53,034 nucleotides of DNA, from NCBI GenBank assembly GCA_020441665.1, contig JAGRLT010000026.1, positions 1-53,034 on the forward strand. Direction: 5' to 3'. Under the pieces are notes generated by a model, which was given only the letters and a program-made list of their open reading frames with translations, did not search any database and was not told where the DNA came from. The translations under genes were made by a program, and so were the position numbers. This stretch comes from Nitratireductor sp. Lineage in GTDB: Bacteria > Pseudomonadota > Alphaproteobacteria > Rhizobiales > Rhizobiaceae. Of the stretch, positions 21,052 to 36,285 are shown in pieces (within the stretch, counting starts at the first letter, position 1; the number at the start of each line of letters is the position of its first letter).

Positions 21052-21110
21052 CTCATCTCCTTTTCATCATGTATGAAATTACGCCGCCCTCGACATTGCC
21101 TTGGAGCCTT

Positions 21111-21557
21111 TCACGCCCCCGGCGGCGGCAGGAAGTCGACCTCGTGAAGCGCCGACAGCCGCACCAGTTCGGCCGGGTCGGTCACACCATCGAGAGCGAT
21201 GAACAGATCAAAGAGCTTGCGCGCCGGCGCAACGCCGAAAACGCAGCTCGCCGGCTTGCCGGAGCGGTTGAAGATTCCGTGCGCGATGCCCTTCGGCATC
21301 CGCACCGTATCGCCACTCGCCGCCTTGTGAACACCGCCGCCTTCCAGCGGAAATTCCACCTCCAGCTCGCCCTCGAGCATGTAGATCCATTCGTCCTGTG
21401 TCGGATGAATGTGCGGCGGCACGAAGGTGTCGGGCGGCAGCGTGGCATGCCATACGAAGGTGTCCTCGCTGAGCAGCTTGGGCACATAGGTCTGGCCCAC
21501 CACATTCCAGGCAAGACCTTGAAGTCCTTCGGCATCGGCCGTTACACCGTACTCCAT
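21111..21557 (-). CDS. cupin protein, paralogue 3
   Basis: This 148-aa cupin is closely related to paralogue 1, with the same opening (M-Y-GVT), the same PPHIHPTQDEW motif and GDTVRMPKGIAHGIFN. The C-terminal third is almost identical to paralogue 1 at protein level and partly at DNA level. A G-rich ribosome site lies 2-8 nt before the start at 21557. It is probably the first gene of a long operon (cupin 3, cupin 2, PhzS-like, Liv transporter), with two dyads just upstream. Function is unassigned. Confidence 0.85.
   Translation of the reverse strand: MEYGVTADAEGLQGLAWNVVGQTYVPKLLSEDTFVWHATLPPDTFVPPHIHPTQDEWIYMLEGELEVEFPLEGGGVHKAASGDTVRMPKGIAHGIFNRSGKPASCVFGVAPARKLFDLFIALDGVTDPAELVRLSALHEVDFLPPPGA
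21136..21185 (+). repeat. 50-nt exact repeat shared with cupin paralogue 1 (copy B)
   Basis: Identical to 13188-13237. The two copies are about 8 kb apart in direct orientation, inside the 3' part of two paralogous genes. Synonymous positions are unchanged within the tract but have drifted outside it. Confidence 0.85.
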
Positions 21558-21605
21558 CGCTCCTCCCCCTGCTGCAACTCCGTCGATCGCGGAGCTGTCT
21601 TTGAC

Positions 21606-21620
21606 GGGTGCGCCGCACCC
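21606..21620. promoter_or_regulatory. short dyad upstream of cupin 3
   Basis: GGGTGC and GCACCC form perfect 6-bp arms around a 3-base centre (GCC), 49 nt before the cupin 3 start. It could be an operator or a leader hairpin. It may work with the second dyad 12 nt further upstream. Confidence 0.4.
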
Positions 21621-21631
21621 TTTGTTGTACG

Positions 21632-21654
21632 GCCGGAATCTGGATCGTTCCGGC
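21632..21654. promoter_or_regulatory. GCCGGAA-N9-TTCCGGC inverted repeat, candidate operator
   Basis: Two perfect 7-bp arms are separated by nine bases, with centres about one helical turn and a half apart, 75 nt upstream of cupin 3. The spacing suits a dimeric regulator. No matching site was found at the cupin 1 promoter, so the regulator may not be the local AraC protein. Confidence 0.5.
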
Positions 21655-21810
21655 TCCGACCCCGGCGGCCGGCTGTCAGGGCCACCGGGATTATGCAGTA
21701 CAATCGGGATGTTACCTCCCGTTGCCGAACGAGGATGATCCTCCAACTTTTCGCAGATATCCGCAAGGGCCTAGTTTGCGTTTGGACCTTGCGCACGGAA
21801 CCGATTGTCA

Positions 21811-21834
21811 AAGGGCGCCCTGCGGGGCGCCCTT
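21811..21834 (-). terminator. intrinsic terminator of the AGCS symporter gene
   Basis: AAGGGCGCCC-TGCG-GGGCGCCCTT is a perfect 10-bp stem with a 4-base loop, 43 nt downstream of the symporter stop on the minus strand. The downstream U-run is short (UUU), so termination may be partial and allow some read-through into cupin 3. Confidence 0.75.
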
Positions 21835-21876
21835 CGATCTTGGTTCAGGCATCTTGGCGACGCCTTGTCAGGCGCC

Positions 21877-23301
21877 TTACCTGGCGTCCGGCCAGGCCGT
21901 CGGATCGGTGTCGAGATCCGGGAACTTCTTCGGATCGAAGACCGGCTTCTTCACACCGTTGCGCAACTGCTCGCGGTAGTCGTTGATGATCCTCAGCGCG
22001 ACCGGGAACAGCATCATGATCGCCAGCAGGTTGACCACCGCCAGGATGCCCATCATCGGATCGGAGAAGTTGAACACCGCCGTCGCGCCAGGCGCGACAG
22101 CACCGAGAAACACGATCCCGATGATCACGATGCGCAGGATCAGAACCGCCTGCGGATTATTGGTCATGAAGCTCAGCGCATTCTCACCCAGATAGTAATT
22201 GTAGATGATGGAGGAGAACGAGAAGAGGAAGATCGCGACGGTCAGATAGTACTGGGCCCAGCTTCCCACATGGCTCACCATCGACTGCTGGGTCAGCGCC
22301 ACGCCGTCGATCCCTTCGACGCCCGGCTGATAGACGTTGCCCAGAAGAATGACGAAGGCCGTGCACGAGCAGATGATGATCGTGTCGATGAAGACCGAGA
22401 AGCTTTGCGTGATGCCCTGGCTGACCGGGTGCTTGACATAGGCGGTCGCCGCCACGTTCGGTGCCGAGCCGAGGCCGGCCTCGTTGGAAAACAGCCCGCG
22501 CCGCAGGCCCTGGGCGATCGCAGCCCCCATGCCGCCGCCGACAGCCTCGCGCCAGCCGAAAGCGTTCGCGACGATGTCGACGATGACCCCGGGAACGGCG
22601 GTGATGTTCATCAGGATGATGAGCAGCGCCATGCCGATATACATGAACGCCATCAGCGGGATGATCACATCCGCTGCCTTCGCGATCCGGTGGATGCCGC
22701 CGAAGACGATAAACCCGGTCGCTGCGGCGACCGCCAGTCCGGTCCAGATCCGGGGGATCGCCATGCTGTCCAGCGCCGCGCCGGCAACCGTATTGCCCTG
22801 GAAGGCGTTGAACCCGATCGAGAAGGAGGCGATGAGACAGATCGCGTAGACCACCGCCAGCCAGCGGTAATTCGCGCCCAATCCGTGAATGATCGCCCGC
22901 GCCGGGCCACCGCGATAGTCGCCGTTTTCCTCGGTTCGCTTGTAGAGCTGCGCCAGCGTCGCCTCGATCAGCGCCGAGCACATCCCGACCAGCGCGATCG
23001 CCCACATCCAGAAGACCGCGCCTGGCCCCCCGGCGGTAATCGCCACCGCGACGCCCGCGATGTTGCCGCCGCCGACGCGCCCCCCCACCGAAACGAACAG
23101 CGCCTCGCGCGCACTTATCTTGGTCGGATCGCTGGTCTCGTCATCGCCCGTCAGGACACCGAACATGCGCCGGAAGAAGCGGAACTGGACGAAGCCGCTG
23201 GCGATCGTGAAGAAAAGACCGAGCACGACCAGGAAGGGAATGAGCGCAAACCCCCATGTCAGATCGTTGATCAAGTTGAATATTGAATCGAGAAACCCCA
23301 T
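21877..23301 (-). CDS. alanine/glycine:cation symporter (AGCS family)
   Basis: This 474-aa sodium-coupled amino-acid importer has about ten to eleven hydrophobic segments. The family hallmark VGGRVGGGNIAGVAVAI and the adjacent AGGPGAVFWMW run (about residues 68-95) are present, as are the GLRRGLFSNEAGLGSAPN motif (about 265-282) and the C-terminal DPMMGILAVVNLLA segment. The start at 23301 follows GGGAGG. It lies upstream of the cupin/PhzS-like operon in the same direction, separated by a terminator, so it may import an amino acid or a structurally related metabolite of that pathway. Confidence 0.92.
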   Translation of the reverse strand: MGFLDSIFNLINDLTWGFALIPFLVVLGLFFTIASGFVQFRFFRRMFGVLTGDDETSDPTKISAREALFVSVGGRVGGGNIAGVAVAITAGGPGAVFWMWAIALVGMCSALIEATLAQLYKRTEENGDYRGGPARAIIHGLGANYRWLAVVYAICLIASFSIGFNAFQGNTVAGAALDSMAIPRIWTGLAVAAATGFIVFGGIHRIAKAADVIIPLMAFMYIGMALLIILMNITAVPGVIVDIVANAFGWREAVGGGMGAAIAQGLRRGLFSNEAGLGSAPNVAATAYVKHPVSQGITQSFSVFIDTIIICSCTAFVILLGNVYQPGVEGIDGVALTQQSMVSHVGSWAQYYLTVAIFLFSFSSIIYNYYLGENALSFMTNNPQAVLILRIVIIGIVFLGAVAPGATAVFNFSDPMMGILAVVNLLAIMMLFPVALRIINDYREQLRNGVKKPVFDPKKFPDLDTDPTAWPDAR

Positions 23302-23351
23302 CAGCTTACCTCCCGTTCTAGTTGATGCCATTCTGGCTGATGACTGGATGT

Positions 23352-23437
23352 CCTGAAATTCGAACCTGAAGGATCGCCCCCTTCATGGATCGCTTCGTTG
23401 CGGCACGACAGTTCCTTATCGGACAATTTCAGGTTCG
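23352..23437. repeat. mutually exclusive inverted repeats in the symporter leader
   Basis: CCTGAAATT (23352-23360) matches AATTTCAGG (23425-23433) over 9 bp. CGAACCTGAA (23361-23370) matches TTCAGGTTCG (23428-23437) over 10 bp. The two pairings compete for one strand. This may be a leader RNA switch or spaced half-sites for a regulator. Confidence 0.45.
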
Positions 23438-23460
23438 CAGCCGCCCCTTTGAACGGTGTG

Positions 23461-23480
23461 GCAGCCGGCAAGCCGGCTGC
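23461..23480. repeat. perfect 9-bp hairpin in intergenic DNA
   Basis: GCAGCCGGC-AA-GCCGGCTGC is fully self-complementary with a 2-base turn. It is about 160 nt upstream of the symporter start. There is no U-tract on either side, so a repeat element or leader structure is as likely as a terminator. Confidence 0.45.
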
Positions 23481-23824
23481 AGTCAGGGCGGTGCCCGGAG
23501 CAGCATGGCGAAGGGCGATGCGATGAAGAGCTGCGGGATAAACTGATCTCCGGGCCCTGTTCGCGCTTCGGCCGGCAATCCTGCTCCGATCAGAAGCCGC
23601 ATCCAGACGCCGGCTTCGAACAACCGGAAATGGCAGGATCAGGGCTGGCTTTGTCCGGTGATTGATCAGCGGTCGCCTCGGTTTTGCTGCGGCTGCGGGG
23701 AGCAATTTTTTTGATCTCGTCCCTCTTTCCTAACCAAAGTTGGGCGCAGACTCAACGGCGAGATGGCACCGGCACTGTTTGGAAGCGCCATTGCGCTGCG
23801 GGAGCTGGCAACTCTCGAGCGTGT

Positions 23825-24472
23825 CTAACGCTGTTTGATGTCGGGGAAGCGGGCTTCCAGGTCGGCAATCTGTTCGCCCGTCAACGGTCGCGTCTCCAGA
23901 TGGCGCAGGGCGATGAAGAGCTTCGCGGTTTCCTCCAGTTCCTCGGCCGCGTTCAGCGCGTCGGAAAGCGATTTTCCCGCCACCACCGGCCCATGATTAG
24001 CCAGCAGCAATGCATGGTGGTCGGAGGCCATTTCGCGCACCGCCTTCGCCAGATCGAGGTCACCGGGGGCGAAGTAAGGCACCAGCGGCAGCTTTCCGAT
24101 CCGCATCACGTAATAGGCGGTCAGAGGCGGCAGCACGGATGCGGGGTCGACCCCGGCAAGGCAGCTTACCGCGACCGAATGGGTCGAATGCAGATGCACG
24201 ATGGCTCCGGCGCGCGGACGGCTGCCATACATCGCCAGATGCAGAAAGCTCTCCTTGGTCGGCGGGTCGCCGTCGAGCAGCCGGCCATCCGGGGCGAGGC
24301 GAGAGAGCCGCGCGGGGTCGAGCGTGCCGAGGGTCGAGCCTGTCGGCGTCATCAGCCAGCCGCCATCCTCCAGCCGGACGCTGATATTGCCGGAGGAACC
24401 GAAGGTCAGACCCCGATCGAAGATCGAACGGCCGACACGGGTGATCTCGTCGCGCAACGCAGTCTCGTTCAT
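23825..24472 (-). CDS. otnC: 3-oxo-tetronate 4-phosphate decarboxylase, class II aldolase family
   Basis: This 215-aa metal-dependent enzyme of the class II aldolase/adducin fold would decarboxylate the 4-phosphate of 3-oxo-tetronate to dihydroxyacetone phosphate. GLTFGSSGNISVRLEDG (about residues 21-37), the HLHSTHS zinc ligands (about 93-99), the nearby catalytic-type Glu in TKESFLHLAMYG and the third histidine in NHGPVVAG (about 160-167) are all visible. The start at 24472 overlaps the kinase stop by 4 nt (ATGA), and the OtnK-OtnC pairing is the main reason for the specific name. It is the last gene of the otn operon. Confidence 0.85.
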   Translation of the reverse strand: MNETALRDEITRVGRSIFDRGLTFGSSGNISVRLEDGGWLMTPTGSTLGTLDPARLSRLAPDGRLLDGDPPTKESFLHLAMYGSRPRAGAIVHLHSTHSVAVSCLAGVDPASVLPPLTAYYVMRIGKLPLVPYFAPGDLDLAKAVREMASDHHALLLANHGPVVAGKSLSDALNAAEELEETAKLFIALRHLETRPLTGEQIADLEARFPDIKQR

Positions 24473-25713
24473 TCCAGCATTCCCAGGGCATCGGAAAAGA
24501 AATCGGGCCCGCCGAAATTCCCCGATTTGAGCGCGATTGCCAAGCCGGGTGCGGCGCACCAGGGAACGCCGGGCGCTATTTCGGGGCCGATGCGGATCGC
24601 GGTGACCCCGAGCGCGGAGAGAACCGCGCCCGAGGTCTCGCCGCCGGCGACGACGATCCGGTTGAAGCCGCGGCGATGAAGATCCCGCGCCACATCGCCC
24701 AGGATGCGTTCGATGAGCGCCCCCGCTTCCGCGCGGCCATACCGTGCCTGCATCGCGGCGACCTCCTGGGGATCGGCGGAACTGTAGATCATCACCGGTG
24801 CGGCGGCGGGCTGTGCTGCGGCCCAGTCGGCGAGTTCGCGCGCGGCATGGCTGGCGGTCGCCGCATCCGCGGTGAGCTTTCGCGCCGGCCAGAGGGCTGC
24901 CGCCCGCGCGGTCTGTTGCCGCGTCGCGGTCGAGCAGCTGCCCGCCAGGATCAGCGCGCGGCCGCGCGCTGCGGGCAGCACCGGCGCTGCCGTCCGGTCG
25001 GCCATGCCGTACTCGGCAGGCAGGCCGAGCGCCACGCCGGAACCGCCGATGACCAGCGGATGATCGCGGATCGCCCGTGCCAGCACATGCAGGTCGCCGT
25101 CCTCGATCGCATCGGCAACGCCATAGCGCAACCCCATGGCCTTCAGTGCCTCGATCCGCGCGCGAACGGCCGCCGCGCCTGCCCGCACGGTCTGAAGCCG
25201 GATCAGTCCGGCGCGGTGCCGGCTCTGGGCCTCCAACAGCCGGATCAGCGAGCTGTCGCGCATCGGGGTCAGGGGATGGTCCTTCATCGGGCTTTCGGCC
25301 AGCGGCTCGTCGCCGACGAAGAGAACCCCTTGATAGACCGTGCGGCCGTTCGCCGGAAGGGCCGGGCAGACCAGCGAGAAATCGGCTCCCGTGGCTGCCA
25401 GCAGCGCGTCGGCGACCGGGCCGATATTGCCCTGCGCCGTGCTGTCGAAGGTCGAACAATGCTTGAAGATGGTCTGGCGCACGCCCCGCGCGCGCAGCCA
25501 GGTCTGGGCCGACAGCGACTGGCGCACCGCTTCGGACGGCGCGATGGTTCGCGATTTCAGCGCCACGACGACGGCCTCCGCATCGCCGGTTTCGGTGCCG
25601 TCGTCGGGCAGGCCGATGATCTGGAGCACCTTCATCCCCTGACGGGTCAGGGTGCCGGCAAGGTCGGTCGCCCCGGTGAAATCATCCGCAATTGCTCCGA
25701 GAAGAAGGCTCAT
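24469..25713 (-). CDS. otnK: 3-oxo-tetronate kinase (four-carbon acid sugar kinase)
   Basis: This 414-aa kinase is of the former DUF1537 family and phosphorylates 3-oxo-tetronate at O4. The N-terminal domain begins GAIADDFTGATDLAGTL with the diagnostic DDFTGA-D motif (residues 9-17), followed by KHCSTFDSTAQGNIGPV (about 84-100). The C-terminal nucleotide domain has VAGGETSGAVLSALG (about 365-379), IGPEIAPGVPWC and ALKSGNFGGPDFF. Overlaps with both neighbours (4 nt each) show tight coupling. The identity is firm for the family; whether the substrate comes from threonate or erythronate is open. Confidence 0.9.
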   Translation of the reverse strand: MSLLLGAIADDFTGATDLAGTLTRQGMKVLQIIGLPDDGTETGDAEAVVVALKSRTIAPSEAVRQSLSAQTWLRARGVRQTIFKHCSTFDSTAQGNIGPVADALLAATGADFSLVCPALPANGRTVYQGVLFVGDEPLAESPMKDHPLTPMRDSSLIRLLEAQSRHRAGLIRLQTVRAGAAAVRARIEALKAMGLRYGVADAIEDGDLHVLARAIRDHPLVIGGSGVALGLPAEYGMADRTAAPVLPAARGRALILAGSCSTATRQQTARAAALWPARKLTADAATASHAARELADWAAAQPAAAPVMIYSSADPQEVAAMQARYGRAEAGALIERILGDVARDLHRRGFNRIVVAGGETSGAVLSALGVTAIRIGPEIAPGVPWCAAPGLAIALKSGNFGGPDFFSDALGMLE

Positions 25714-26609
25714 CGCCCGGCCCCTTCCACCGCTTTGGAACCGACATTGCCGCCATAGAGGCGGGCAGGAACCTCACACAGGATCATATGCCGGAGGGCC
25801 GCGTCGATACCGGAAAAGAAGGTATCGAACAGCGCCCCCGCATCGACCGGCCGGAACGGGCTCGGTGGGGGAGGCGCACCCTGCCATACCGGGTGCGGCG
25901 GGGTGTGCGGCCAGTCCGACCCCCAGAGGCAGCGCTGCGGGAATCGCGTCGCGATCGCCTGTGCGGTGGCGAGCGCCTCCCGCGGGTTCGAAAGCCGGTA
26001 GAGGCCGGAAATCTTTGTGTAGATTTCCGCCTCTTCCATCAGAGCCGCCAGGGCCGGAAGGTCGCCGGGGCCCAGATGGGCCATGTGATCCAGCACGATC
26101 GGGACCCCAAGCCGGGCTGCATGCTGGCGCAGGAGGGGAAATTGCAGCCGGTCGACATGGAGCTCCAGATGCCAACCGAGTTCCGCCGCCTGTGCCGCGG
26201 CCGCCAGAACCGCCGCGCGGGTCTCGTCTGCCGAAAGAAGGGTTGCCTGCACCCGCAGGCCGCGCATGCCGGCACGCCCCAGTCGCTCGATCGCGCCGTC
26301 CGCCATGCGTTCACCCGGCGGGAAGCATCCGACGGCGACCGCGCGTTGGCCGAGCGCGGCAAGCGCATCGGCCAGGCAGGCGTGATCGCCGCCATAGGGC
26401 GAGGGCTGGACGAGGACGACCCGGTCGATCCCCATATGGTCGAGCATCCGTGCGAGATCGTCATGCTCGGCCAGGCCCGGAGTGTAGCGACGGGTCGGTG
26501 AAAGCCCGTATTTGTCGGGCCGGCCGAAAACATGCGTATGGCAATCCCATGCCCCAGGCGGCACCGGCACCGCCGGGCGCACGGGTCGATGTGGCGAATA
26601 CGCGCTCAC
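25710..26609 (-). CDS. amidohydrolase family protein (LigI-like), possible tetronolactone lactonase
   Basis: This 299-aa metal-dependent TIM-barrel hydrolase is of the amidohydrolase 2 / 2-pyrone-4,6-dicarboxylate lactonase group. The first-strand CHTH motif (about residues 23-26), the DHMAHLGP motif (about 175-182) and the C-terminal WGSDWPH motif (about 230-236) are visible. The start is a GTG at 26609 whose GTGA overlaps the stop of the upstream dehydrogenase; no ATG fits. Members often open lactones, so hydrolysis of a threono- or erythronolactone is a reasonable hypothesis, but replacement of the missing isomerase OtnI cannot be excluded. Confidence 0.8.
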   Translation of the reverse strand: MSAYSPHRPVRPAVPVPPGAWDCHTHVFGRPDKYGLSPTRRYTPGLAEHDDLARMLDHMGIDRVVLVQPSPYGGDHACLADALAALGQRAVAVGCFPPGERMADGAIERLGRAGMRGLRVQATLLSADETRAAVLAAAAQAAELGWHLELHVDRLQFPLLRQHAARLGVPIVLDHMAHLGPGDLPALAALMEEAEIYTKISGLYRLSNPREALATAQAIATRFPQRCLWGSDWPHTPPHPVWQGAPPPPSPFRPVDAGALFDTFFSGIDAALRHMILCEVPARLYGGNVGSKAVEGAGR

Positions 26610-27670
26610 GCTGCCTCGAGCGCGCCTTCGACCGCGCGACCGAAGGCATCGCAGCCGAGCGTCCCGCCGAGATCGGCGGTACGGCGGGCGGGATCGGCGA
26701 GGCAGGTGTCCACCGCCCGCTCGATCGCCGCACCCGCAAGGGCAAAGTTCGGCGCGTTGCGCCGTTCGTCCCACCAGTTCAGCATCATCGCCGCCGAGAG
26801 GATCAGCGAGGTCGGGTTCGCCTTGTTCTGGCCGGCGATATCGGGAGCCGAACCATGCTGGGCCTGGGCGGCGCACCGCTCCTCATTGGCGTTGATCGAC
26901 CCCGCCAGACCGAGCGAACCCGAGAGCTCCGAGGCGAGATCGCTCAGGATGTCGCAATAGAAGTTGGTCGAACAGATGACGTCGAAGCGCATCGGCGAAC
27001 GGACAAGCAGCGCCGCCGTCGCATCGACGATCAGCTCTTCGTATTCAACGTCGGGATACTCCCCTGCCACCGCCCGCACCGCCTCCAGAAAGAGTCCGTC
27101 GGTGATGATGAAATTGTTGGCCTTGTGGATGGCCGCCACCTTGCGCCGGCGCTTCGTCGCCAGTTCGAAGGAGGCCCGCGCAATCCGGGTGCAGGCATGC
27201 CTCGTGATCTTGCGCATCGAAAGCGCGGTGTCCGGGTCGGGCATGAACTCGGCATGTCCGCGATACATGTTCCGGTCGGGATACATGCCCTCCGTGCATT
27301 CGCGCATGATGACAAGGTCCATCTCGCCGGCCCTCGACGGCACACCGGGGCGGGTCTTGGCGGGCCGCACATTGGCGAACAGGTCGAGCCGCGTTCTGAC
27401 GGCGGCCGAGACGTTGACGCCGCCCTTGTCGCGGTCGGGATAGTCGAGATGGCTGATCGGGCCGAGCAGGATGCCGTCCGCCCTGCGGGCGCGCTCAAGC
27501 ACCGCGTCGGGAAAGGTCGTACCGGTCTGTTCGAGCGCGGCGAAACCGATGGCTTGCCGCTCGAAGGAAAGCCCGAGCCCGAACCGCCTGTCCGCCGCGC
27601 GGAGCACCCCGAGGGTCGCCGCCGTGATTTCGTCGCCAATTCCGTCGCCGGGCATTACCACTATGTGCAT
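26606..27670 (-). CDS. isocitrate/isopropylmalate dehydrogenase family protein (tartrate dehydrogenase-like)
   Basis: This 354-aa NAD(P)-dependent 2-hydroxyacid dehydrogenase opens with PGDGIGDEIT (about residues 7-16). It includes ECTEGMYPDRNMYRGH (about 124-139), the catalytic-lysine region AAIHKANNFIITDGLF (about 179-194), the metal-binding aspartates in IVDATAALLV and DILSDLASELSGSLG (about 245-259), and the adenine-loop motif HGSAPDIAGQNKANP. The family oxidises the C2 hydroxyl of malate-like acids, sometimes with decarboxylation. In an otn operon lacking LtnD, DenD or PdxA2 it is the best candidate for oxidising a tetronate. It overlaps its upstream neighbour by 10 nt. Confidence 0.85.
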   Translation of the reverse strand: MHIVVMPGDGIGDEITAATLGVLRAADRRFGLGLSFERQAIGFAALEQTGTTFPDAVLERARRADGILLGPISHLDYPDRDKGGVNVSAAVRTRLDLFANVRPAKTRPGVPSRAGEMDLVIMRECTEGMYPDRNMYRGHAEFMPDPDTALSMRKITRHACTRIARASFELATKRRRKVAAIHKANNFIITDGLFLEAVRAVAGEYPDVEYEELIVDATAALLVRSPMRFDVICSTNFYCDILSDLASELSGSLGLAGSINANEERCAAQAQHGSAPDIAGQNKANPTSLILSAAMMLNWWDERRNAPNFALAGAAIERAVDTCLADPARRTADLGGTLGCDAFGRAVEGALEAA

Positions 27671-28725
27671 TCGTCACTCCCGAAGCTTTGCAGATCGACA
27701 GCCTCTCCCGTCTCGATCGAACGATAGGCGGCAAAGACGGCCGTCAGGGTCTTTAGATTGTCCTCGAGCGAGGTCTCGAAGGCGGCGCCCGTTCCAAGCC
27801 CTTGCACAAAATGCGCGATGCAATCGGCATAGGAGCGGGCATAGGCATCCGTCCGGTCGAACTCAGGCGCCCATTCGCGGCGCCCCGCCGGCCCGTCGCG
27901 GATGATCGTGAGCCGTCCGTCGCCCGTCAGGAAGGCACTGCCCTCGGCCCCCTCGACCAGCACACGCTCGCCACCACCGCTCTGCGGGCTTGGATGCCCC
28001 TTGGAGGCATAGGACCGCTCGATCGAGACGTCCATATCGTCGAACGCCAGCGTGAGGAGCGCCGTATCCTCGGCGGCAACCAACGGGCTGACCCGGCGGG
28101 CGCGGGCAAAGAGCCGGCGCGGTTCGCCGAAAAGGTAGCGCGCGACATCGATCTGGTGGATCACCGATTCGAGGATCAGGAAGGGATTGAGCGCCGCGTG
28201 GCGCGGCTGGCGGGCGAGCGACCACGGCATCCCGGGATGTTCGGCGATGGTGACCGTGCCCGCCTTGCGCTCGCTGCTGCGGGCGAAGAAGGGCGTGCCG
28301 ATGGCGCCGGCGTCGAGTTCGGCCTTGAGGGCCCGGTTCCAGGGGCGGAACCGGAAGTTCTCATGCACCATCGCGGGAAGGCCGCCGGCCGCAGCGACGA
28401 TGGCGCGGGCATCCGCGAGGTTGGCGGCCAGGGGTTTCTGGCACATGAAGGGCAGGCCCGCCTGGATCGCCACGCCGCAGTCGGCGGGGTGGTTGAGCGG
28501 AGGCGAGGCGATGTCGATGGCATCGGGCCGGGTCCTCCCGATCGCCTCCTCCAGCGTCCGGTAGCCCGCCGGGATGCCGAGTTCGGCGAGCCTTGGCGCG
28601 GCGGGGTCGCGTGTCACCGCCGCCACCACTTCGCATCCCGCCTGCCGCCAGCCGGCGACGTGATAGGGCGCGACAAAGCCGGTTCCCACGACAACAACCC
28701 GCAGCGGAGGCGTGCGGTCCGTCAT
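27661..28725 (-). CDS. Gfo/Idh/MocA family oxidoreductase
   Basis: This 354-aa NAD(P)-dependent dehydrogenase is of the glucose-fructose oxidoreductase / inositol dehydrogenase family. The Rossmann motif VVGTGFVAPYHV (about residues 12-23) is followed by the catalytic Lys in CQKPLAANLADAR (about 94-106; most relatives have EKP, here QKP) and the ESVIHQIDVARYLFG catalytic-type segment (about 188-202). It overlaps the TRAP permease by 4 nt (ATGA) and the dehydrogenase downstream by 10 nt. It could oxidise an aldose or sugar acid before the lactonase and kinase steps. Confidence 0.87.
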   Translation of the reverse strand: MTDRTPPLRVVVVGTGFVAPYHVAGWRQAGCEVVAAVTRDPAAPRLAELGIPAGYRTLEEAIGRTRPDAIDIASPPLNHPADCGVAIQAGLPFMCQKPLAANLADARAIVAAAGGLPAMVHENFRFRPWNRALKAELDAGAIGTPFFARSSERKAGTVTIAEHPGMPWSLARQPRHAALNPFLILESVIHQIDVARYLFGEPRRLFARARRVSPLVAAEDTALLTLAFDDMDVSIERSYASKGHPSPQSGGGERVLVEGAEGSAFLTGDGRLTIIRDGPAGRREWAPEFDRTDAYARSYADCIAHFVQGLGTGAAFETSLEDNLKTLTAVFAAYRSIETGEAVDLQSFGSDECT

Positions 28726-30020
28726 TGCAGCAACCAGTCCGGAATTATCGTCACGATGGGTGGAAAGAGGATCACCGCGACGATCACCCCGAGCGTCAGG
28801 ATGATATAGGGAACCGCGGTTCGCGCCAGTTGCTCGAAGCGCAGTCCGGTGACCCGTACCAGCGCATAGAGGACCATCCCCACCGGCGGCGTCAGCAGCC
28901 CCAGTGTCAGCGTCAGCGTCATCACCACGCCGAAGTGGATGAGATCGAGATCGAACTGCTGGGCGATCGGCATCAGGATCGGCGTCAGGATCAGGATCGC
29001 CGGCGTCTGCGCCATGAAGCAGCCGACGATCATCCAGAGCACCATCATCAGCAGCATCAGCACCGTTCCGTTCGAGGTCAGCGAGGCGAGATAGCCGGCA
29101 AGGGCCGTGGGCAGTTGCGCGCGGATCATCACCACGCCAAAGGCCGAGGTGAAGACGATGATCACCATGACCACGGCGGTGTCGATCATCGTGCCGCGTA
29201 TCTCGCGCATGAGCCCGGACAGGCCATAGGCGCGGTAGACGACGAGACCGAGAAAGGCGGCATAGAGGGCGGCGACGGCGGCGGCCTCCGTAGGGGTGAA
29301 GATGCCGAACCAGATGCCGCCCATGATGATGAAGGGCGTCAGCACGGGAAGGATGGCGAGCCGGAAGGCGGGCCACAGTTCGGCCAGCGTCGCATGGCTG
29401 CCTTTCGGCATGCCGTCGCGGCGGGCCCGGTAGGCGACATAGCCCATGTAGACCGCCGCCATCAGCATTGCCGGGCCGATCGCCGCAAAGAACATCCGTG
29501 CCACCGAAACCTCGGCCTGTACGGAATAGGCGACCAGCGCGATCGAGGGTGGCAGGATCGGTCCGATGAGCGAGGAAGCCGCCGTGATCCCGGCGCTGAA
29601 GCGGCGGTCGTAGCCGTGTGACAGCATCGCCTTCATCTCGATCTGGCCAAGCCCCACCGCATCGGCCGTCGCCGATCCCGACATGCCGGCGAACATCACG
29701 CTGGCCAGCACGTTGGCATGGCCGAGCCCGCCCCGGACCGGACGGACGAGCAGGCTGACAAAGCCGAAGATGCGCTCCGTGATGCCACCATTGTTCATCA
29801 GCCGGCCGGCAAGCAGGAAGAAGGGCACGGCAAGCAGCAGAAAGCTGTCCATCTTGTTCAGCGCTTCGCGCGCGATCATCGTCGCGGCGCGAGGGTCGAA
29901 CATGTCGCCGAAGAAATAGCCCGCCCCGAGGAAGGCCGCGATCCCGGCGGAAAAGCCCACAGGCATGCCGATGACGATAAGGCCGATCAGCAGGGCGACC
30001 AGAAACAGGTAGGCTATCAT
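28722..30020 (-). CDS. TRAP transporter large permease, DctM-like
   Basis: This 432-aa inner-membrane subunit of a tripartite sodium-dependent carboxylate importer has about twelve hydrophobic segments. Family hallmarks include LVRPVRGGLGHANVLASVMF, FAGMSGSATADAVGLGQIEM and the C-terminal TPPVGMVLYAL. The start at 30020 overlaps the DctQ-like gene by 4 nt; a longer frame upstream is rejected because it lies within dctQ. TRAP systems commonly import sugar acids such as gluconate, galactarate or threonate, in keeping with the otn genes downstream. Confidence 0.92.
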   Translation of the reverse strand: MIAYLFLVALLIGLIVIGMPVGFSAGIAAFLGAGYFFGDMFDPRAATMIAREALNKMDSFLLLAVPFFLLAGRLMNNGGITERIFGFVSLLVRPVRGGLGHANVLASVMFAGMSGSATADAVGLGQIEMKAMLSHGYDRRFSAGITAASSLIGPILPPSIALVAYSVQAEVSVARMFFAAIGPAMLMAAVYMGYVAYRARRDGMPKGSHATLAELWPAFRLAILPVLTPFIIMGGIWFGIFTPTEAAAVAALYAAFLGLVVYRAYGLSGLMREIRGTMIDTAVVMVIIVFTSAFGVVMIRAQLPTALAGYLASLTSNGTVLMLLMMVLWMIVGCFMAQTPAILILTPILMPIAQQFDLDLIHFGVVMTLTLTLGLLTPPVGMVLYALVRVTGLRFEQLARTAVPYIILTLGVIVAVILFPPIVTIIPDWLLQ

Positions 30021-30619
30021 GTGTCGTGGTCTCTCCCGAGCGGGCCGGCGCGCCGCCCGGCGATCTGATCGCGCGTATCGAGCAGCACGTATAAGAACAG
30101 CAGGCCGATCGCCGCCAGCTCCCAGATGTAGAAATAGGAGACCCGAAAGAAGGGGATCGTCGTCAGGGTCGAGTTCCAGTTGAGTTCGGCCAGCCGCCAT
30201 GCGCCGCGGGCCCAGAAGCCCAGAAACGCGACGATGCACAGGTTGAAGACCAGCGCGAGGCCCCGCTGGATGCCGGCGGGAAACCCGGCGAACAGAAAAT
30301 CGACCACGACGTGCTCGTGCTCACGATAGGCAAAGGCGATCGACATCACCATGCACAGAACGAAGAGCACCCGTGCCGCCTCTTCCGTCCAGGCCACCGG
30401 TATCTCCAGCACGTAGCGGAAGACGACCTGTCCGAGGGCGGCGAGGATCATCGCGCAGAAGGCGGCAAGACACAGCCAGATCAGCATCCGTTCCGGCGGC
30501 GAATAGGACACCTGCGGCACACCGCCGGCGGGAGGATCGAAATCGACCCCCGGCACCCCCGCAGAAGCCGCGCCGGGTTGACCACCCGCCTCCGGCCCGG
30601 CTTCCGTTTCTGACGTCAT
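30017..30619 (-). CDS. TRAP transporter small permease, DctQ-like
   Basis: This 200-aa membrane subunit has four hydrophobic spans (about residues 46-66, 80-97, 122-142 and 165-183). An acidic, proline-rich N-terminal extension of about 40 residues precedes the first span and is longer than usual. The core VFRYVLEIPVAWTEEAARVL (about 65-84) is diagnostic for DctQ. It overlaps both dctP and dctM by 4 nt. Confidence 0.9.
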   Translation of the reverse strand: MTSETEAGPEAGGQPGAASAGVPGVDFDPPAGGVPQVSYSPPERMLIWLCLAAFCAMILAALGQVVFRYVLEIPVAWTEEAARVLFVLCMVMSIAFAYREHEHVVVDFLFAGFPAGIQRGLALVFNLCIVAFLGFWARGAWRLAELNWNSTLTTIPFFRVSYFYIWELAAIGLLFLYVLLDTRDQIAGRRAGPLGRDHDT

Positions 30620-31593
30620 TGGGCCGCCTTGGCAATGTCGTCGAGCAGACCCGGACGACAATTCTCCGCGGCGAATTTCTGCACGATCGGCATGGCGATC
30701 TTACGGAAGGCGGGCACGTCGGGTTCGACGATCTCGACCCCTTCGGCCTTCATCTTCTCCAGCAGCGCATCGGTATCGTTGCGGACCTTGTCGTTGAGCC
30801 ATGCGATCGAGTCGGCCAGGGTCTTGTCGAAGATCTCGCGCTGCTGGTCGCTGAGGGAGTCCACGAATTCCTTGTTGGCCGAGATGACATAGTAGCTGAT
30901 CACGTGGCCGGTCAGGTTGACCGTCTTCTGGACCTCGTAGAACTTGTTGCCCCAGATGGTCGGGATCGGGTTTTCCTGCGCTTCGAACACGCCCTGACGC
31001 AAGGCGCCATAGAGTTCGGAGACGGGGAGCGGGCCAGGCAGCGCGCCATAGGCGGCGAAGACTTCCGAACGCAGCGGATTGGTGACGCGGACCTTGACGC
31101 CTTCGAGATCCGACGGCTCCCGGATCGGCTTCATCGCGGTCAGCTCCCGGGCGCCGCGCAGGCCGACCCCGACAATGGTGATCCCGTACTGCTCCTCGAG
31201 CTTGTCGGAAACCTCGTTGCCGAGATCGCCGGTCCATACGCGATAGCCGTGGTCCTCGTTCTCATAGACAAACTCGGCTTCCATGCACTGGTAGTCCTTG
31301 AGCAGGCGGTGAACCACGACCGGACCCGCGACATGGAGCTGGATCTCGTTGGTCGCAAGCTGCTGGAGCAACTGCTGGTCCCCGCCCAGCGCCCCGCCCG
31401 AGACGAAATCCATGTTGAGCTCGCCGTTCGAGGCCTCCTTCATCGCCTGTTGCCAGCGGACGACGGCCTGCGAACTGAAGTCGTTCGGGCCGTTTGTCGT
31501 GGCGAAGGTGAAGTTGACCGGTTCGGCAAGCGCCGGTCCGGCAAGGGTGACGAGACCGAACAGTCCGGCCAGGAGCTTCGTGGTCTGTTTCAT
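30616..31593 (-). CDS. TRAP transporter substrate-binding protein, DctP-like
   Basis: This 325-aa periplasmic receptor has a Sec signal peptide ending GPALA (about residues 1-23). The mature protein begins EPVNFTFATTNGPNDFSSQA and has the conserved GVKVRVTNPLRSEVF segment (about 165-179), in which an arginine typically binds the ligand carboxylate, and FEAQENPIPTIW. The start at 31593 follows GGGAGG 4 nt upstream. It heads the operon that ends with otnC, so a four-carbon sugar acid or lactone is the expected ligand (inference). Confidence 0.9.
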   Translation of the reverse strand: MKQTTKLLAGLFGLVTLAGPALAEPVNFTFATTNGPNDFSSQAVVRWQQAMKEASNGELNMDFVSGGALGGDQQLLQQLATNEIQLHVAGPVVVHRLLKDYQCMEAEFVYENEDHGYRVWTGDLGNEVSDKLEEQYGITIVGVGLRGARELTAMKPIREPSDLEGVKVRVTNPLRSEVFAAYGALPGPLPVSELYGALRQGVFEAQENPIPTIWGNKFYEVQKTVNLTGHVISYYVISANKEFVDSLSDQQREIFDKTLADSIAWLNDKVRNDTDALLEKMKAEGVEIVEPDVPAFRKIAMPIVQKFAAENCRPGLLDDIAKAAQ

Positions 31594-31604
31594 GATTCCT
31601 CCCA

Positions 31605-31659
31605 ATGTATACGTAGAATCGTTTTATAAATACATAAAATTCCTTGACGTCGGAGTCAA
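31605..31659 (-). promoter_or_regulatory. promoter and candidate GntR operators of the TRAP/otn operon
   Basis: Reading the minus strand, TTGACT (31654-31659) and TATGTA (31631-31636) are 17 nt apart, a good sigma-70 type promoter. ATGTAT (31605-31610) and ATACAT (31630-31635) form an inverted pair, and GTATAC (31607-31612) is itself a palindrome of the type bound by FCD/GntR proteins. One arm overlaps the -10 and the other lies early in the transcript, so both could serve repression. Confidence 0.6.
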
Positions 31660-31730
31660 CCACCGGAAACGCCGGTATTTTAGCGCCTTTTGCATTGAGC
31701 TACAGCGAGTTTCTTGCTATTTCGCGAGGT

Positions 31731-32468
31731 ATGAATGAAGCAATGAATACACTGGACACCGATGCGTATATGCAGCCGGAGGCCGCAGGCGAAGGCGCAT
31801 CTCGCACGGAAGCCGCCTATCAGGAGCTGAGGCAGCGCATCCTCAGCCTGGATCTCGCCCCCGGCGCGCTGACGCTGGAAACCGAGCTGGCCGCGATGTT
31901 GGGAATGAGCCGCACCCCCCTGCGCGAGGCCGTGATCCGGCTGGCGCAGGAGGGACTGGTAATACCTGTCCCGCGCCGCGGTATTCAGGTCGCGCCGATC
32001 ACCGAGCGCGATGTTCGCGAGATCAACCAGGTTCTTGCCTGCCTGGAGATCGAAGCGGTGATGATCGTCGCCGCGCGCCCCGTGCGCGACGAGGAGATCG
32101 CCGCACTCGACAGCGCCATCGCAGCGATGGACGCGGCCCTTGAAAGCGACGATATCGACGGGTGGGGCAAGGCTGACTTCCGTTTTCATTCCTTGATCTT
32201 CGAGCTCTGCCCGAACCGCCATCTGAACCAGACGGCGCGGCTCTATCTCGACAAGGCGCACCGGGCGCGGCTTCTCACGCTGCCCTATCGCAGGCGGCCG
32301 GTCTATTCGAATTCGAACCACGCCGCGGTGGTCGAGGCGATCCGCCGCGGCGATCCGGAGACCGCGCGGGATATCCATGCCGCGCACAAGCGGCGCTGGT
32401 CGTCGGAACTCGACCAGATCATCGAGCTGTATCCTTCGATGTTCGAGCCAGGGTCTTCCCTTGACTGA
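31731..32468 (+). CDS. GntR family regulator, FCD type
   Basis: This 245-aa regulator has an N-terminal winged helix (about residues 25-95) with GMSRTPLREAVIRLAQEGLV and the PRRGIQV wing. An FCD helical effector domain (about 100-235) includes the metal-binding-type residues around DFRFHSLIF and the late histidines in SNSNHAAVVEAI. It is divergent from the TRAP/otn operon and is its likely regulator, with a sugar acid or phosphate as effector. The start could be 31731 or 31743; neither has ideal ribosome-site spacing. A small hairpin (31662-31676) lies in its leader. Confidence 0.88.
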   Translation: MNEAMNTLDTDAYMQPEAAGEGASRTEAAYQELRQRILSLDLAPGALTLETELAAMLGMSRTPLREAVIRLAQEGLVIPVPRRGIQVAPITERDVREINQVLACLEIEAVMIVAARPVRDEEIAALDSAIAAMDAALESDDIDGWGKADFRFHSLIFELCPNRHLNQTARLYLDKAHRARLLTLPYRRRPVYSNSNHAAVVEAIRRGDPETARDIHAAHKRRWSSELDQIIELYPSMFEPGSSLD

Positions 32469-33138
32469 CCGGCCGCCCAGGATTGCCTTGATCCATGCGG
32501 TGGCGGTGGCGATGCAACCGATCCATGCCGCCTTCGCCGCCGAATGGCCGCAAGCGGAACTGATGAACATTCTCGATGATTCCCTGAGCCTCGACCGGGC
32601 GCGCGACACCGACCTGAGCGCGGCGATGACGGAGCGGATCGTGGCGCTTGGCGACTATGCGGAGAGCGCGGGCGCCGAAGGCATCCTCTATACCTGCTCG
32701 GCCTTCGGCGCGGCGATCGAGGCAAAGGCCGCGCAAAGCGCCATTCCGGTCCTGAAGCCCAATGAGGCCATGTTCCTCGACGCCTTCCGGCACGGCCTCA
32801 GGATCGGCATGCTTGCGACTTTCGGGCCGTCCGTTTCGGGAATGGAGGCCGAGTTCCGTGCCGAGGCGGCCCGCAACGCCCCCGGCGCTGCGCTCGAGAC
32901 GGTGCTGGTCGCCGATGCGATCGAGGCACTGAAAGGCGGAGATGCCAGGACCCACGATCGCCTGGTCGCGGCGGCGGCCCCGGCGCTCGCCCATTGCGAC
33001 GCGATCCTCCTGGCGCATTTTTCCACCTCGCGCGCCGCGGCGGCCGTGCGCGAGGTGGTCGGCCTGCCCGTCCTGACCGCTCCCGGTTGCGCCGTAAGGC
33101 TGTTGCGAACGCAATACTATCAAAGGCAACCGGCGTGA
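32461..33138 (+). CDS. Asp/Glu/hydantoin racemase-like protein
   Basis: This 225-aa two-domain alpha/beta protein belongs to the Asp/Glu racemase superfamily, whose members use two cysteines to racemise or one for decarboxylation or isomerisation. The first-cysteine motif is present (YTCSAFG, about residues 74-80), but the position of the second motif reads LLAHFSTS, without cysteine. A further cysteine in APGCAV near the C-terminus is not at the usual site. A TTG start at 32461 overlapping the GntR stop by 8 nt is proposed because no ATG fits. It probably shares the GntR transcript and may be an accessory isomerase of the otn pathway. Confidence 0.75.
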   Translation: MTDRPPRIALIHAVAVAMQPIHAAFAAEWPQAELMNILDDSLSLDRARDTDLSAAMTERIVALGDYAESAGAEGILYTCSAFGAAIEAKAAQSAIPVLKPNEAMFLDAFRHGLRIGMLATFGPSVSGMEAEFRAEAARNAPGAALETVLVADAIEALKGGDARTHDRLVAAAAPALAHCDAILLAHFSTSRAAAAVREVVGLPVLTAPGCAVRLLRTQYYQRQPA

Positions 33139-33426
33139 CATCCGGAGCCGCCCCGAATCCCGCTCCGCCGGCCAGGCCGGCGGGCCGGAGCCCGGTTGTC
33201 CGTCGCGGGTGAGAAGCCCCTTCCGCGTCCTTCCGGCCTGTTCGGCAGCCAGACCGCCAAAGCGATGCGAACCCCCTCCAAGGAAAAATGCTCCCGCACG
33301 CCTTGTGTTTTGCGTCCCACGATCGAGGGCGTCGTCAAACCTTGGGATCAAACCGCCGACTTGCCGCATTTGTTGTTTTGCCAACCATGGATCCGTGGTT
33401 GAAGGGGGAGCGAGAGGATCCGCCTG
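33139..33426 (+). promoter_or_regulatory. intergenic region: GC hairpin and 20-bp dyad before the YdiJ-like gene
   Basis: CGCCGGCC-A-GGCCGGCG (33166-33182) is a strong stem just past the racemase-like gene and may end its transcript, although no U-run follows. CAACCATGGA followed by TCCGTGGTTG (33382-33401) is a 20-bp dyad with one mismatched pair, 26 nt before the next start codon, and is a candidate operator. No gene is seen. Confidence 0.5.
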
Positions 33427-36285
33427 ATGCCCGAAGCCCACCCCCATCCCGACCGGGAGCTTGACATCGAAATGCTCGAGCGGCGGCTTCGGGCAGCCGG
33501 CTTTGCCGGGGAAATCGAAACCGACAGCACGGTGCGTGCCGCCATGTCGACCGACAATTCGGTCTACCAGATCGTCCCCGATCTGATCCTCGCGCCGCGC
33601 GACGCGGCCGACGTTGTGACAGTGCTCGGCGTCATGGAAGACCCGGAATTCAGAACCATCCCGATCACCGGCCGCGGCGGCGGTACGGGAACCAACGGGC
33701 AAAGCCTGAACAGCGGCGTCATCATCGATCTGCGCCGGCACATGAACCGGGTCATCGAACTGAATACCGAAGAGGGCTGGGCCGATGTCGAGCCCGGCGT
33801 CGTGCTCGACGATCTCAACGACCGTATTCGCCCCTCCGGCTGGTTCTTCGCGCCCGAGACCTCGACGTCGACCCGCTGCACCATCGGCGGCATGGTCTCG
33901 ACCGACGCCTCGGGCAAGGGTTCGCGCGTCTACGGCAAGACTTCCGACAACATTCTCGGGCTGGAAACAGCACGGCCGCAAGGGCTCCTGGCAAGCGACG
34001 GCCCCGCCCCCGACTGGGCACGGGCCTTGCTGGCAGCGGCGCAGAAGGCCGCGCGCTCGGGGCGACAGGCGTTCATCGACAATACGCCGCGCCTCAATCG
34101 GCGCTTCACCGGCTACGATCTGGAACGGGCCTGCCCGCAGCAGGGCGGCTTCCAGTGGTGGCGCCTCTTTCTGGGCGCGGAGGGAACGCTCGGCCTCATC
34201 ACGCGCATTCGCGTCAAGCTGCGCCGGATCGAGTCCGAAAGGCGGCTGATCGTGGCGGGCTTTGACAGCTTCCGCACCGCACTTGCCGCCGCCACCCCAC
34301 TTCTTGCCGCCGATCCGACCGCCGTCGAGGTGATGGACGAGACGGTCCAGTCGATCGCCGATGCCGCCGGCGTTCTCGACCGCCTGCCGGCCGGCCTGCG
34401 CGCGCGGGACGGCCAGCAGGTCGCCTATGTCTTCGTCGAAATCAACGGCGCGGATGCCGCCGCCGTCGATGGCCGGGTCGAGCACTGCCGCGCGATCCTT
34501 TCGGACCTGCCGGGAGCCGGCGCCGTTCATGTCGTCGGCAATCTGACCGAGATCAAGGAACTCTGGGCGATCCGTTCGGCGGGCGTCGGCCTGCTGGGAA
34601 AGATTGACGGAACCGCCCGCCCGGTCGCCTTTGTCGAGGACACGGTGGTCCCGCCCGAGAACCTTCCTGCCTTCATCGACGAATTCCTCGCCATCCTGTC
34701 GCGCAACGGTCTCGGCTTCGGCATTTACGGCCATGTCGATGTCGGCTGTCTTCACATCCGCCCCGCCCTGAACATCGATGCCGCCGCCGATCGCGAGAAA
34801 CTCGTCGCGGTATCGGACGCGGTCTACGCGCTGACCCGCAAGCATGGTGGAATTTTCTGGGGCGAGCACGGCAAGGGCGTGCGCGGCGCCTATCTGCGCG
34901 ACTGGATCGGAGCCGAGGCCCATCGCGCGCTGCAGGGCATCAAGGCGGCCTTTGATCCGGCCGGCCGCTACAATCCCGGCAAGCTGGTGACCAACGACGC
35001 GCCCATCATGGGCATCGCGACGACCCCGTTCCGCGCCTTCAACGCGCCCGACGGAGACCCTCTGACCCGGGCCTTCCGCTGCAACGGCAACGCCCAGTGC
35101 CTCAGCTATGCCGCGACGACGCCGATGTGCCCGAGCTTCAAGGCCAGCGCCGATCTGCGCCACAGCCCCAAGGGGCGCGCCGACGCCCTGCGCGCCTGGC
35201 ACGGCGCCAGGGCTGACAACGCCGCGGACCTCGCCGCCCGCGAGGCCGACCTCCTGGGCGTGCTGGACACCTGCCTCGGCTGCAAGGCCTGCGCCTCGAC
35301 CTGCCCGATACAGGTCGATATCCCGGCAATGCGCACCGCCTTCTACGCCGATTACTTCGCCCGGCACAAACGCCCGCTGAGCGATCATCTGGTGCTTGCG
35401 GCCGAGCGCTTCAGCCCGATCACCGCGCGGCTCGCCCCTTTCCTGGCGCCGTTCTGGCCCCTGCTGGCAAGGCTTGGCGGTGCGATGACCGGCAGCGTCG
35501 ATCTGCCCGCAAGCCTGGCGACGGGCCTGCCGAAAGACCTGCTGCTGCGTGAAACGGACCTTTCAGGCACCCTCCCCCAACGCACGGTCATCGTGGTGCA
35601 GGACTGGTTCACCGCGCTGTTCGACGCAGAGGTGCAGCTGGACGTGGTCGCCGGGCTTACCGCGCTCGGCTACAGGCCAAGGCTGCTCCAGATGCGCCCG
35701 GCCGGCAAATCCGCCCGTACCGCAGGCGACATGAAGGGCTTCGCCGGAATGGCGGCGCGTCTCGCCGACCTTCTGCACCGGGCGGCGGCGACCGGCGCGC
35801 CGCTTGTCGCTTTCGAGCCCGCCTTCGCAATGATGCTGCGGCAGGAATATGTTAAAGCCGGCATCACACTGCCCAAGGTGCGGATGCCGCAGGAATTCCT
35901 CGCCGCCGAGGCCGGGTCGCGAACCTTTCCCCAGGCCCGATCGGCAAAGGCCGCCAAGCTGCTCTCGCACTGCACCGAGGCAACGGCCGATCCGCAAAGC
36001 GGCAGGCAGTGGGCCGAGGTATTTGCCGCCATCGGCGCGACGATCGAGACCCCCGCCACCGGATGCTGCGGCATGGCCGGCCTCTTCGGCCATCAACGCC
36101 GCCACCAGGAAGTCTCGGAAAGACTGTTCGACCTGTCATGGCGCGCCCATGTCGAGGGCGGCGCAGTCATGGCGACGGGATTTTCCTGCCGCTGTCAGAG
36201 CGAACGGCTGGCGGGCAAGAGCCTTCGTCATCCCCTGGGGATCATCGCCGACATGCTGGGGAGCGAGACCGGCATTCCCGGCTGA
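33427..36285 (+). CDS. FAD-linked oxidase / Fe-S protein, YdiJ-like (D-2-hydroxyacid dehydrogenase)
   Basis: This 952-aa fusion protein oxidises a D-2-hydroxyacid and passes electrons to the respiratory chain. The N-terminal FAD-binding type 4 domain (about residues 40-270) carries ITGRGGGTGTNGQ (about 79-91) and GGMVSTDASGKGS. A C-terminal substrate domain of the FAD-oxidase type follows (about 275-515; WGEHGKGVRGAY near its end). The Fe-S region has RCNGNAQC with PMCP (about 543-567) and a classical CLGCKACASTCP cluster (about 617-628). The tail has the cysteine-rich GCCGMAGLFGHQ motif and GFSCRCQSE. The architecture matches E. coli YdiJ, a group linked to D-2-hydroxyglutarate. It stands alone, flanked by the otn and hydantoinase regions, with GAGAGG before the start. 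Confidence 0.88.
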   Translation: MPEAHPHPDRELDIEMLERRLRAAGFAGEIETDSTVRAAMSTDNSVYQIVPDLILAPRDAADVVTVLGVMEDPEFRTIPITGRGGGTGTNGQSLNSGVIIDLRRHMNRVIELNTEEGWADVEPGVVLDDLNDRIRPSGWFFAPETSTSTRCTIGGMVSTDASGKGSRVYGKTSDNILGLETARPQGLLASDGPAPDWARALLAAAQKAARSGRQAFIDNTPRLNRRFTGYDLERACPQQGGFQWWRLFLGAEGTLGLITRIRVKLRRIESERRLIVAGFDSFRTALAAATPLLAADPTAVEVMDETVQSIADAAGVLDRLPAGLRARDGQQVAYVFVEINGADAAAVDGRVEHCRAILSDLPGAGAVHVVGNLTEIKELWAIRSAGVGLLGKIDGTARPVAFVEDTVVPPENLPAFIDEFLAILSRNGLGFGIYGHVDVGCLHIRPALNIDAAADREKLVAVSDAVYALTRKHGGIFWGEHGKGVRGAYLRDWIGAEAHRALQGIKAAFDPAGRYNPGKLVTNDAPIMGIATTPFRAFNAPDGDPLTRAFRCNGNAQCLSYAATTPMCPSFKASADLRHSPKGRADALRAWHGARADNAADLAAREADLLGVLDTCLGCKACASTCPIQVDIPAMRTAFYADYFARHKRPLSDHLVLAAERFSPITARLAPFLAPFWPLLARLGGAMTGSVDLPASLATGLPKDLLLRETDLSGTLPQRTVIVVQDWFTALFDAEVQLDVVAGLTALGYRPRLLQMRPAGKSARTAGDMKGFAGMAARLADLLHRAAATGAPLVAFEPAFAMMLRQEYVKAGITLPKVRMPQEFLAAEAGSRTFPQARSAKAAKLLSHCTEATADPQSGRQWAEVFAAIGATIETPATGCCGMAGLFGHQRRHQEVSERLFDLSWRAHVEGGAVMATGFSCRCQSERLAGKSLRHPLGIIADMLGSETGIPG

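Follow-up and report, generated by a model that had tools for sequence, protein, structure and literature searches.

Relation to described tetronate and sugar-acid pathways

The four-step LtnD/DenD-OtnI-OtnK-OtnC pathway handles L-threonate and D-erythronate, and the OtnC of the 3-oxo-tetronate route is of the Aldolase_II type (as outlined in PMC12540250). A version of this pathway in Brucella carries both LtnD and DenD (as summarized in PMC10580937). We describe here a related gene cluster on a contig of Nitratireductor sp. (GenBank assembly GCA_020441665.1, contig JAGRLT010000026.1), whose full 53,034 nucleotides are referred to as the window. The cluster shares OtnK, an Aldolase_II OtnC and the expected end product, dihydroxyacetone phosphate (DHAP), with the four-step pathway. 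In place of LtnD, DenD and OtnI, however, it has an isocitrate dehydrogenase (IDH)-type enzyme, a Gfo/Idh/MocA (Gfo) dehydrogenase, a LigI-like lactonase and a protein of the Asp/Glu-racemase family. No description of such an IDH/Gfo/lactonase variant was found among the open-licence papers listed. The cluster looks like an undescribed route feeding a sugar acid into glycolysis, with other oxidising and ring-opening enzymes placed ahead of a known kinase and decarboxylase.

Other described pathways resemble the window in part. The three-step L-threonate bypass (LtnD, 2-OtnK and 2-OtnC), as presented in PMC12540250, also proceeds without OtnI; its OtnC is of the F_bP_aldolase type, whereas PF00596 (Aldolase_II) is the only domain of the window OtnC, with no F_bP_aldolase domain, and the window has no LtnD. 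The D-threonate kinase/PdxA pathway was not matched, since the window kinase scored 155.1 against a D-threonate kinase (DtnK) cut-off of 450 and no PdxA was present among the ten window proteins scanned. In D-apiose breakdown, the dehydrogenase is of the Gfo type and the kinase belongs to the DUF1537 family. That pathway groups an aldose dehydrogenase, a lactonase, a kinase and a decarboxylase in one cluster (as outlined in PMC11747546). The plan is similar, but the window kinase is OtnK rather than OiaK, and the place of the oxidoisomerase is taken by an IDH-type enzyme; the D-apiose pathway was rejected for this operon because the kinase failed the cut-off for the 3-oxo-isoapionate kinase OiaK (118.3 of 700). 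Finally, an L-ascorbate pathway of Ralstonia eutropha, attributed to Stack et al. (2020), is said to use an amidohydrolase lactonase and then a dehydrogenase that decarboxylates and belongs to the wider IDH/PdxA superfamily. By comparison, the window has an IDH rather than PdxA, and ends in OtnK and OtnC.

OtnK, OtnC and the proposed route

Eight genes on the minus strand form one tight operon, in which each neighbouring pair shares 4 bases, except the IDH/Gfo pair, which shares 10. They include otnK, encoding a 3-oxo-tetronate kinase (DUF1537; 24469-25713), and otnC (23825-24472, with an ATG at 24472). OtnK scored 568.3 bits against NF043035 (cut-off 350) and OtnC, a PF00596 protein, 327.6 bits against NF043034 (cut-off 250). 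These two were the only scanned proteins to pass NCBIfam equivalog cut-offs, both with wide margins, and we assign them to the last two steps of the route with high confidence. LtnD, DenD and OtnI were absent among the ten window proteins scanned by profile, and BLAST with OtnI and LtnD-type queries gave no match within 18001-38000 of the window, in agreement with the original prediction. That prediction had also correctly listed OtnK and OtnC, the IDH-type and Gfo/Idh enzymes, the LigI-like amidohydrolase and the importer, but it missed the racemase-family gene at 32461-33138, which lies past the span it considered.

From this gene content we infer the following route. A tripartite ATP-independent periplasmic (TRAP) importer would take up a carboxylated sugar, the Gfo enzyme would oxidise a ring carbon to give a lactone, and the LigI-like amidohydrolase would open this lactone to the free acid. 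The IDH-type enzyme would then oxidise the acid and probably remove a carboxyl group, as its family does, yielding 2- or 3-oxo-tetronate. The one-cysteine racemase-family protein could move a proton to give 3-oxo-tetronate (the role of OtnI), which OtnK would phosphorylate before OtnC decarboxylates the phosphorylated product to DHAP. We put at slightly under an even chance this explanation, in which the operon imports a sugar acid and degrades it through a variant OtnK/OtnC pathway.

Counting carbons back from DHAP leads to an oxo-tetronate (C4) and then to a C5 diacid. A C5 hydroxy-diacid, for example 2-C-hydroxymethyl-tartrate (3-C-carboxy-tetronate), is therefore proposed as the acid of the IDH step; this compound would keep the malate core used by IDH enzymes, and its lactone would suit the LigI-like enzyme. 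A C5 diacid with decarboxylation is plausible although somewhat doubtful. More tentative is the complete scheme, in which an IDH-type decarboxylase, fed by Gfo and interchangeable lactonases, makes oxo-tetronate from a C5 (possibly branched) diacid, a one-cysteine isomerase/decarboxylase replaces OtnI, and OtnK and OtnC finish at DHAP. Aceric acid was rejected as a substrate: its carbon count fails to give DHAP, and, by title and abstract opening, none of the open-licence papers listed concerned its catabolism.

Canonical tetronate genes elsewhere in the genome

The genome is a draft of 3.34 Mb in 173 contigs, 93.65% complete. It encodes a DenD over its cut-off (C15:25854-26810, 360.6 of 325), adjoined by an LtnD-like protein below cut-off; the best LtnD-family score across the genome was 186 of 350. 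An OtnI-like gene under its cut-off is found on contig C17 (254 of 325). A second otnC-otnK pair lies on contig C29, beside an OtnI-like sequence split over two frames (C29:6105-6850). Because DenD, OtnI-like genes and a second otnK-otnC occur together in this genome, a canonical D-erythronate route with its own kinase and decarboxylase may exist there. The concern that an LtnD or OtnI elsewhere might serve the operon is thus justified only by half: DenD and OtnI-like sequences are indeed present, but with a second otnK-otnC.

The two-frame OtnI-like gene of C29 (locus L007) is either broken or an assembly error. Beyond the second otnKC pair, positions 10045-19001 of this locus hold genes resembling an ATP-binding cassette (ABC) transporter, a DUF6298 protein, a further Gfo enzyme and two consecutive LigI-like amidohydrolases.

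Recurrence around otnK-otnC

One hundred otnC loci were surveyed, comprising 2 from the genome itself, 39 from 385 genomes sampled across the class (every match outside the genome itself) and 59 from the family; the last are every other one of the upper matches listed and are biased towards higher OtnC scores. One locus of the same genus (L194) was left out of this count, and several loci stop at contig ends. OtnI was scored as present at no less than 150 bits within 8 kb of otnC.

OtnI occurred near otnC in 51 of the 100 loci and an IDH-type gene in 13, the two never together. Clear OtnI was therefore found in none of the 13 IDH loci against 51 of the 87 others (Fisher p 3.7e-5, uncorrected for relatedness); with weak OtnI matches included, the counts were 3/13 and 55/87. 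An LtnD-type gene was present in one IDH locus against 38 of the 87 others. The IDH-type genes form two clades, IDH1, which contains the window gene, and IDH2, 34-39% identical to the window IDH. A racemase-family gene accompanied IDH1 in 6/7 IDH1 otnC loci (7/93 of the others), while a Gfo gene accompanied IDH2 in 5/6 loci (1/94 of the others, that one being the window). Of 23 loci with IDH, 10 have a lactonase near otnC and 7 a Gfo relative, against 0/90 without IDH in both cases; the set of 23 includes loci picked for IDH, and the Gfo, lactonase and ABM queries were taken from IDH loci, which favours matches there.

Absence of OtnI is by itself unremarkable, since 26 of the 100 loci, some of them at contig ends, lack all six partners that were counted. 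Traced along a tree of 107 OtnK sequences, the IDH state undergoes 10 changes for 21 loci, against 19.3 in shuffles (minimum 15), indicating inheritance in part and repeated gain or loss in part. In six genomes of the same genus (two of them only 77% complete), the window IDH found no match at E 1e-60, and thus the operon is not a genus-wide trait. The combination of IDH, Gfo and lactonase around otnK-otnC is real and recurrent.

Clusters of otnK-otnC are automatically annotated as 3-oxo-tetronate genes and taken for threonate or erythronate pathways. If a minority (13 of the 100 sampled loci) instead receives its substrate from an IDH-type enzyme, in many cases after a lactone step, such genomes are wrongly interpreted, and the fate of an acid has gone undescribed. 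Six enzymes and a TRAP receptor are available from the operon, and the ligand of this receptor would name the substrate.

Two further arrangements were seen. A DRL_cat/SAF oxidoreductase (PF21135 in L088, 4641-8666) or a relative lies near otnK-otnC without IDH in L088, L169, L150 and L158, and the first two also carry a racemase-family gene. In L224 (6677-7351) and L225 (near 11266), OtnK and IDH2 occur with a different class II aldolase (29-32% identical to OtnC) replacing OtnC.

The IDH-type dehydrogenase

The gene at 26606-27670 (minus strand) encodes the proposed entry oxidation. Its product passes PF00180 (2.3e-84) but falls short of all 16 NCBIfam cut-offs listed for it; tartrate dehydrogenase (TTC) scored 212.9 of 470.4, leuB 233.7 of 353.2 and PRK08997 isocitrate dehydrogenase 269.5 of 510. 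The AlphaFold model has a pLDDT of 90, with low confidence in the PDRN loop (132-136, 138-141), and among PDB chains it lies closest to isocitrate and isopropylmalate dehydrogenases. The features of the PF00180 superfamily, namely the fold, the arginine triad, the tyrosine, the lysine and the metal-binding aspartates, were all found. The protein thus has the fold and the metal and substrate residues of the isocitrate/isopropylmalate/tartrate dehydrogenases, but differs from them by falling under every equivalog cut-off, by the extra PDRN loop after Y130 and by forming a clade of its own.

Residues R92, R102, R123, K183, D216 and D240 are invariant across 34 aligned IDH-type sequences, and the three arginines align with R88, R98 and R118 of homoisocitrate dehydrogenase. 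These arginines presumably hold two carboxylates, as we take them to do throughout the family. Y130 is kept in the window IDH; all seven otnKC-linked IDH2 sequences have Phe at this position. Conservation of the arginines, Y130 and the other active residues favours, for the window enzyme, a substrate with two carboxylates, undergoing oxidation and decarboxylation. We think it rather likely that this enzyme performs the entry oxidation.

The substrate first suggested was a tetrose or tetronolactone. It would be oxidised by the Gfo enzyme and opened by the amidohydrolase to a C4 tetronate, which the IDH-type enzyme would oxidise without decarboxylation, replacing LtnD or DenD. The same gene set would suffice, OtnK and OtnC are 3-oxo-tetronate enzymes by score, and IDH2 loci L155, L220 and L222, with a sugar ABC importer, a short-chain dehydrogenase/reductase and an aldehyde dehydrogenase, would fit a C4 polyol or tetrose. 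However, the IDH retains the arginine triad presumed to hold two carboxylates, and a TRAP importer of the acid type would be unexpected for a tetrose. Both fit a diacid better. Tetrose and tetronolactone are kept as one of several candidate substrates, and we consider this explanation rather unlikely.

Gfo enzyme, amidohydrolase and the lactonase slot

The proposed lactone-forming enzyme is encoded at 27661-28725 (minus strand) and exceeds the cut-offs of PF01408, PF22725 and PF02894. Its best PDB relative is 5uhw (126.8 bits, the next scoring 53.2), from a group that may be ApsD of the D-apiose pathway. The adjacent amidohydrolase gene (25710-26609, minus strand; PF04909) has an uncertain GTG start. 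The only NCBIfam match of this probable lactonase was 4-sulfomuconolactone hydrolase, below cut-off (95.4 of 500), and its best solved relative is 2-pyrone-4,6-dicarboxylate hydrolase (4d8l, E 1.7e-25). Residues D22, H24, H26, R119, D174, H175, D232 and H235 are kept in 16/16 distinct aligned homologues (17 rows, with the window sequence entered twice).

A close Gfo relative was found in 15 of 89 loci with an IDH-type gene, and 14 of these 15 also carry a lactonase-type gene from one of three families. The slot is LigI-like in the window and in L195, of the metallo-beta-lactamase type, related to acyl-homoserine lactonases, in L111, L131, L193, L221 and L223, and of the SMP-30/gluconolactonase type in L102, L224, L225, L237, L238, L240 and L241; L171 alone had no lactonase-type gene. 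The filling of the same slot by different protein families argues for a lactone that must be opened in these clusters, and a lactone intermediate is probable. A candidate isomerase (a racemase-family or ABM gene) is present in 12 of the 15 loci. The only NCBIfam match of the two ABM proteins scanned was LsrG ketol isomerase, at 46.8/135 and 40/135 and so under the cut-off.

A fourth family, the PF10282 propellers, occurs in clusters of Pantoea and Lichenicola without a Gfo relative. These bear on an analogue of the L-ascorbate route, in which the amidohydrolase would open a 2-carboxy-tetronolactone and the IDH would decarboxylate 2-carboxy-tetronate. Such an analogue would account for an amidohydrolase together with a beta-propeller "lactonase" near IDH in those two genera. 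The window operon has no beta-propeller gene, however, and the substrate would lack the alpha-carboxylate next to the oxidised carbon that IDH enzymes, as we understand them, normally use; we regard this analogue as highly improbable.

The racemase-family protein

The racemase-family gene (32461-33138, plus strand; PF01177, 48.4 of 31) starts at a TTG inside the gene of the divergent GntR regulator. The fold of its product resembles hydantoin, glutamate and aspartate racemases and arylmalonate decarboxylase; this is a fold match only, as a sequence search of the PDB gave no match at E 0.1. C79 is present in all 24 distinct relatives aligned (25 rows, with the window sequence twice), with no second conserved cysteine. 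The protein thus shares the superfamily fold but not the two conserved cysteines of Asp/Glu racemases, and a two-base racemase was rejected because just one cysteine is conserved. Its assignment to the OtnI role is tentative.

Evidence against the proposed route

The claim of a new route in the original prediction is supported in that a distinct IDH/Gfo/lactonase combination recurs around otnK-otnC without clear OtnI, but the absence of OtnI on which it leaned is common: OtnI is missing beside otnC in 49 of the 100 loci. Several observations weigh against the route proposed above. Three IDH1 loci carry a weak OtnI-like gene (195-205 of 325 bits, with a somewhat better score as hydroxypyruvate isomerase), and these loci may thus still require a step of the OtnI type. 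Nine loci (L073-L075, L090, L138, L148, L152-L154) combine IDH1, a racemase-family gene and otnKC with no Gfo relative, and several of them carry acnA, RraA or a gene like succinate-semialdehyde dehydrogenase. With Phe in place of Tyr at position 130 in the otnKC-linked IDH2 sequences, the chemistry of the two clades may not be the same. As for the C5 diacid, we know of no natural source of it, and none of its names appeared in the open-licence literature matches examined; these concerned itatartaric or 2-hydroxyparaconic acid only, fungal C5 acids that are one hydroxyl short.

Locus L195, from another genome of the class, has counterparts of DctM (64% identity), Gfo (53%), IDH (70%) and the amidohydrolase (36%), with divergent GntR (60%) and racemase-family (57%) genes. 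No otnK-otnC lies beside this unit; otnK, otnC and OtnI-like genes are on another contig of that genome (L122). Thus L195 supports the unit, but weakens otnKC as its constant outlet. Moreover, the otnKC-linked IDHs share their NVSA motif with a sister clade whose genes neighbour a tripartite tricarboxylate transporter and PrpF/TcuA-type genes, and the IDH may therefore prefer a tricarboxylate-like acid.

These last points would suit another explanation, in which a citrate- or aconitate-like tricarboxylate is broken down by the IDH, the amidohydrolase and the racemase-family protein, leaving otnK-otnC to process a by-product or some second compound that enters through the same uptake system. 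Besides L195, it draws on acnA near IDH in Shinella, Pantoea, A. pusense and Priestia plasmids, and on the TcuA, TcuB or PrpF-type genes that adjoin related IDHs. In the window, however, otnKC overlaps other operon genes, and both IDH clades repeat the association of Gfo, lactonase and IDH with otnKC, without clear OtnI. We judge a tricarboxylate pathway of this kind unlikely.

End product, related islands and neighbouring genes

Some of the genes tpiA, gapN, gpmA, eno, pyk and ppc are present in related otnKC or IDH islands (one of these stretches being without IDH), and methylglyoxal synthase is encoded near otnKC or IDH2 in L019, L134, L225 and L238. Since lower-glycolysis genes and methylglyoxal synthase accompany related islands, DHAP is the likely product. 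Methylglyoxal synthase lies in or beside these clusters as if draining DHAP.

Relatives of the module occur in Rhizobiales, Rhodobacterales, Burkholderiales and Pantoea, and legume-symbiont plasmids carry several of these relatives. The legume hosts of the carriers may hint at the source of the substrate. Several plasmid carriers of IDH come from Mimosa, Leucaena, Vachellia and Phaseolus. On a plasmid of Cupriavidus taiwanensis (L077/L087), an island of 40 kb encodes a large part of lower glycolysis along with two IDH enzymes and two amidohydrolases; an IS3-family element disrupts the otnK of this island.

The remaining operon genes, on the minus strand, encode the TRAP importer: the large permease DctM (28722-30020; PF06808, 1.9e-102), the small permease DctQ (30017-30619; PF04290, 6e-19) and the substrate-binding protein DctP (30616-31593; PF03480, 1.2e-63), whose best PDB relatives are 4p47 and 4ovt. 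The divergent GntR/FCD regulator (PF00392, PF07729) lies on the plus strand at 31731-32468, or from 31743. Further on, positions 33427-36285 encode a long protein that appears by eye to be an FAD-linked oxidase fused to an iron-sulfur domain.

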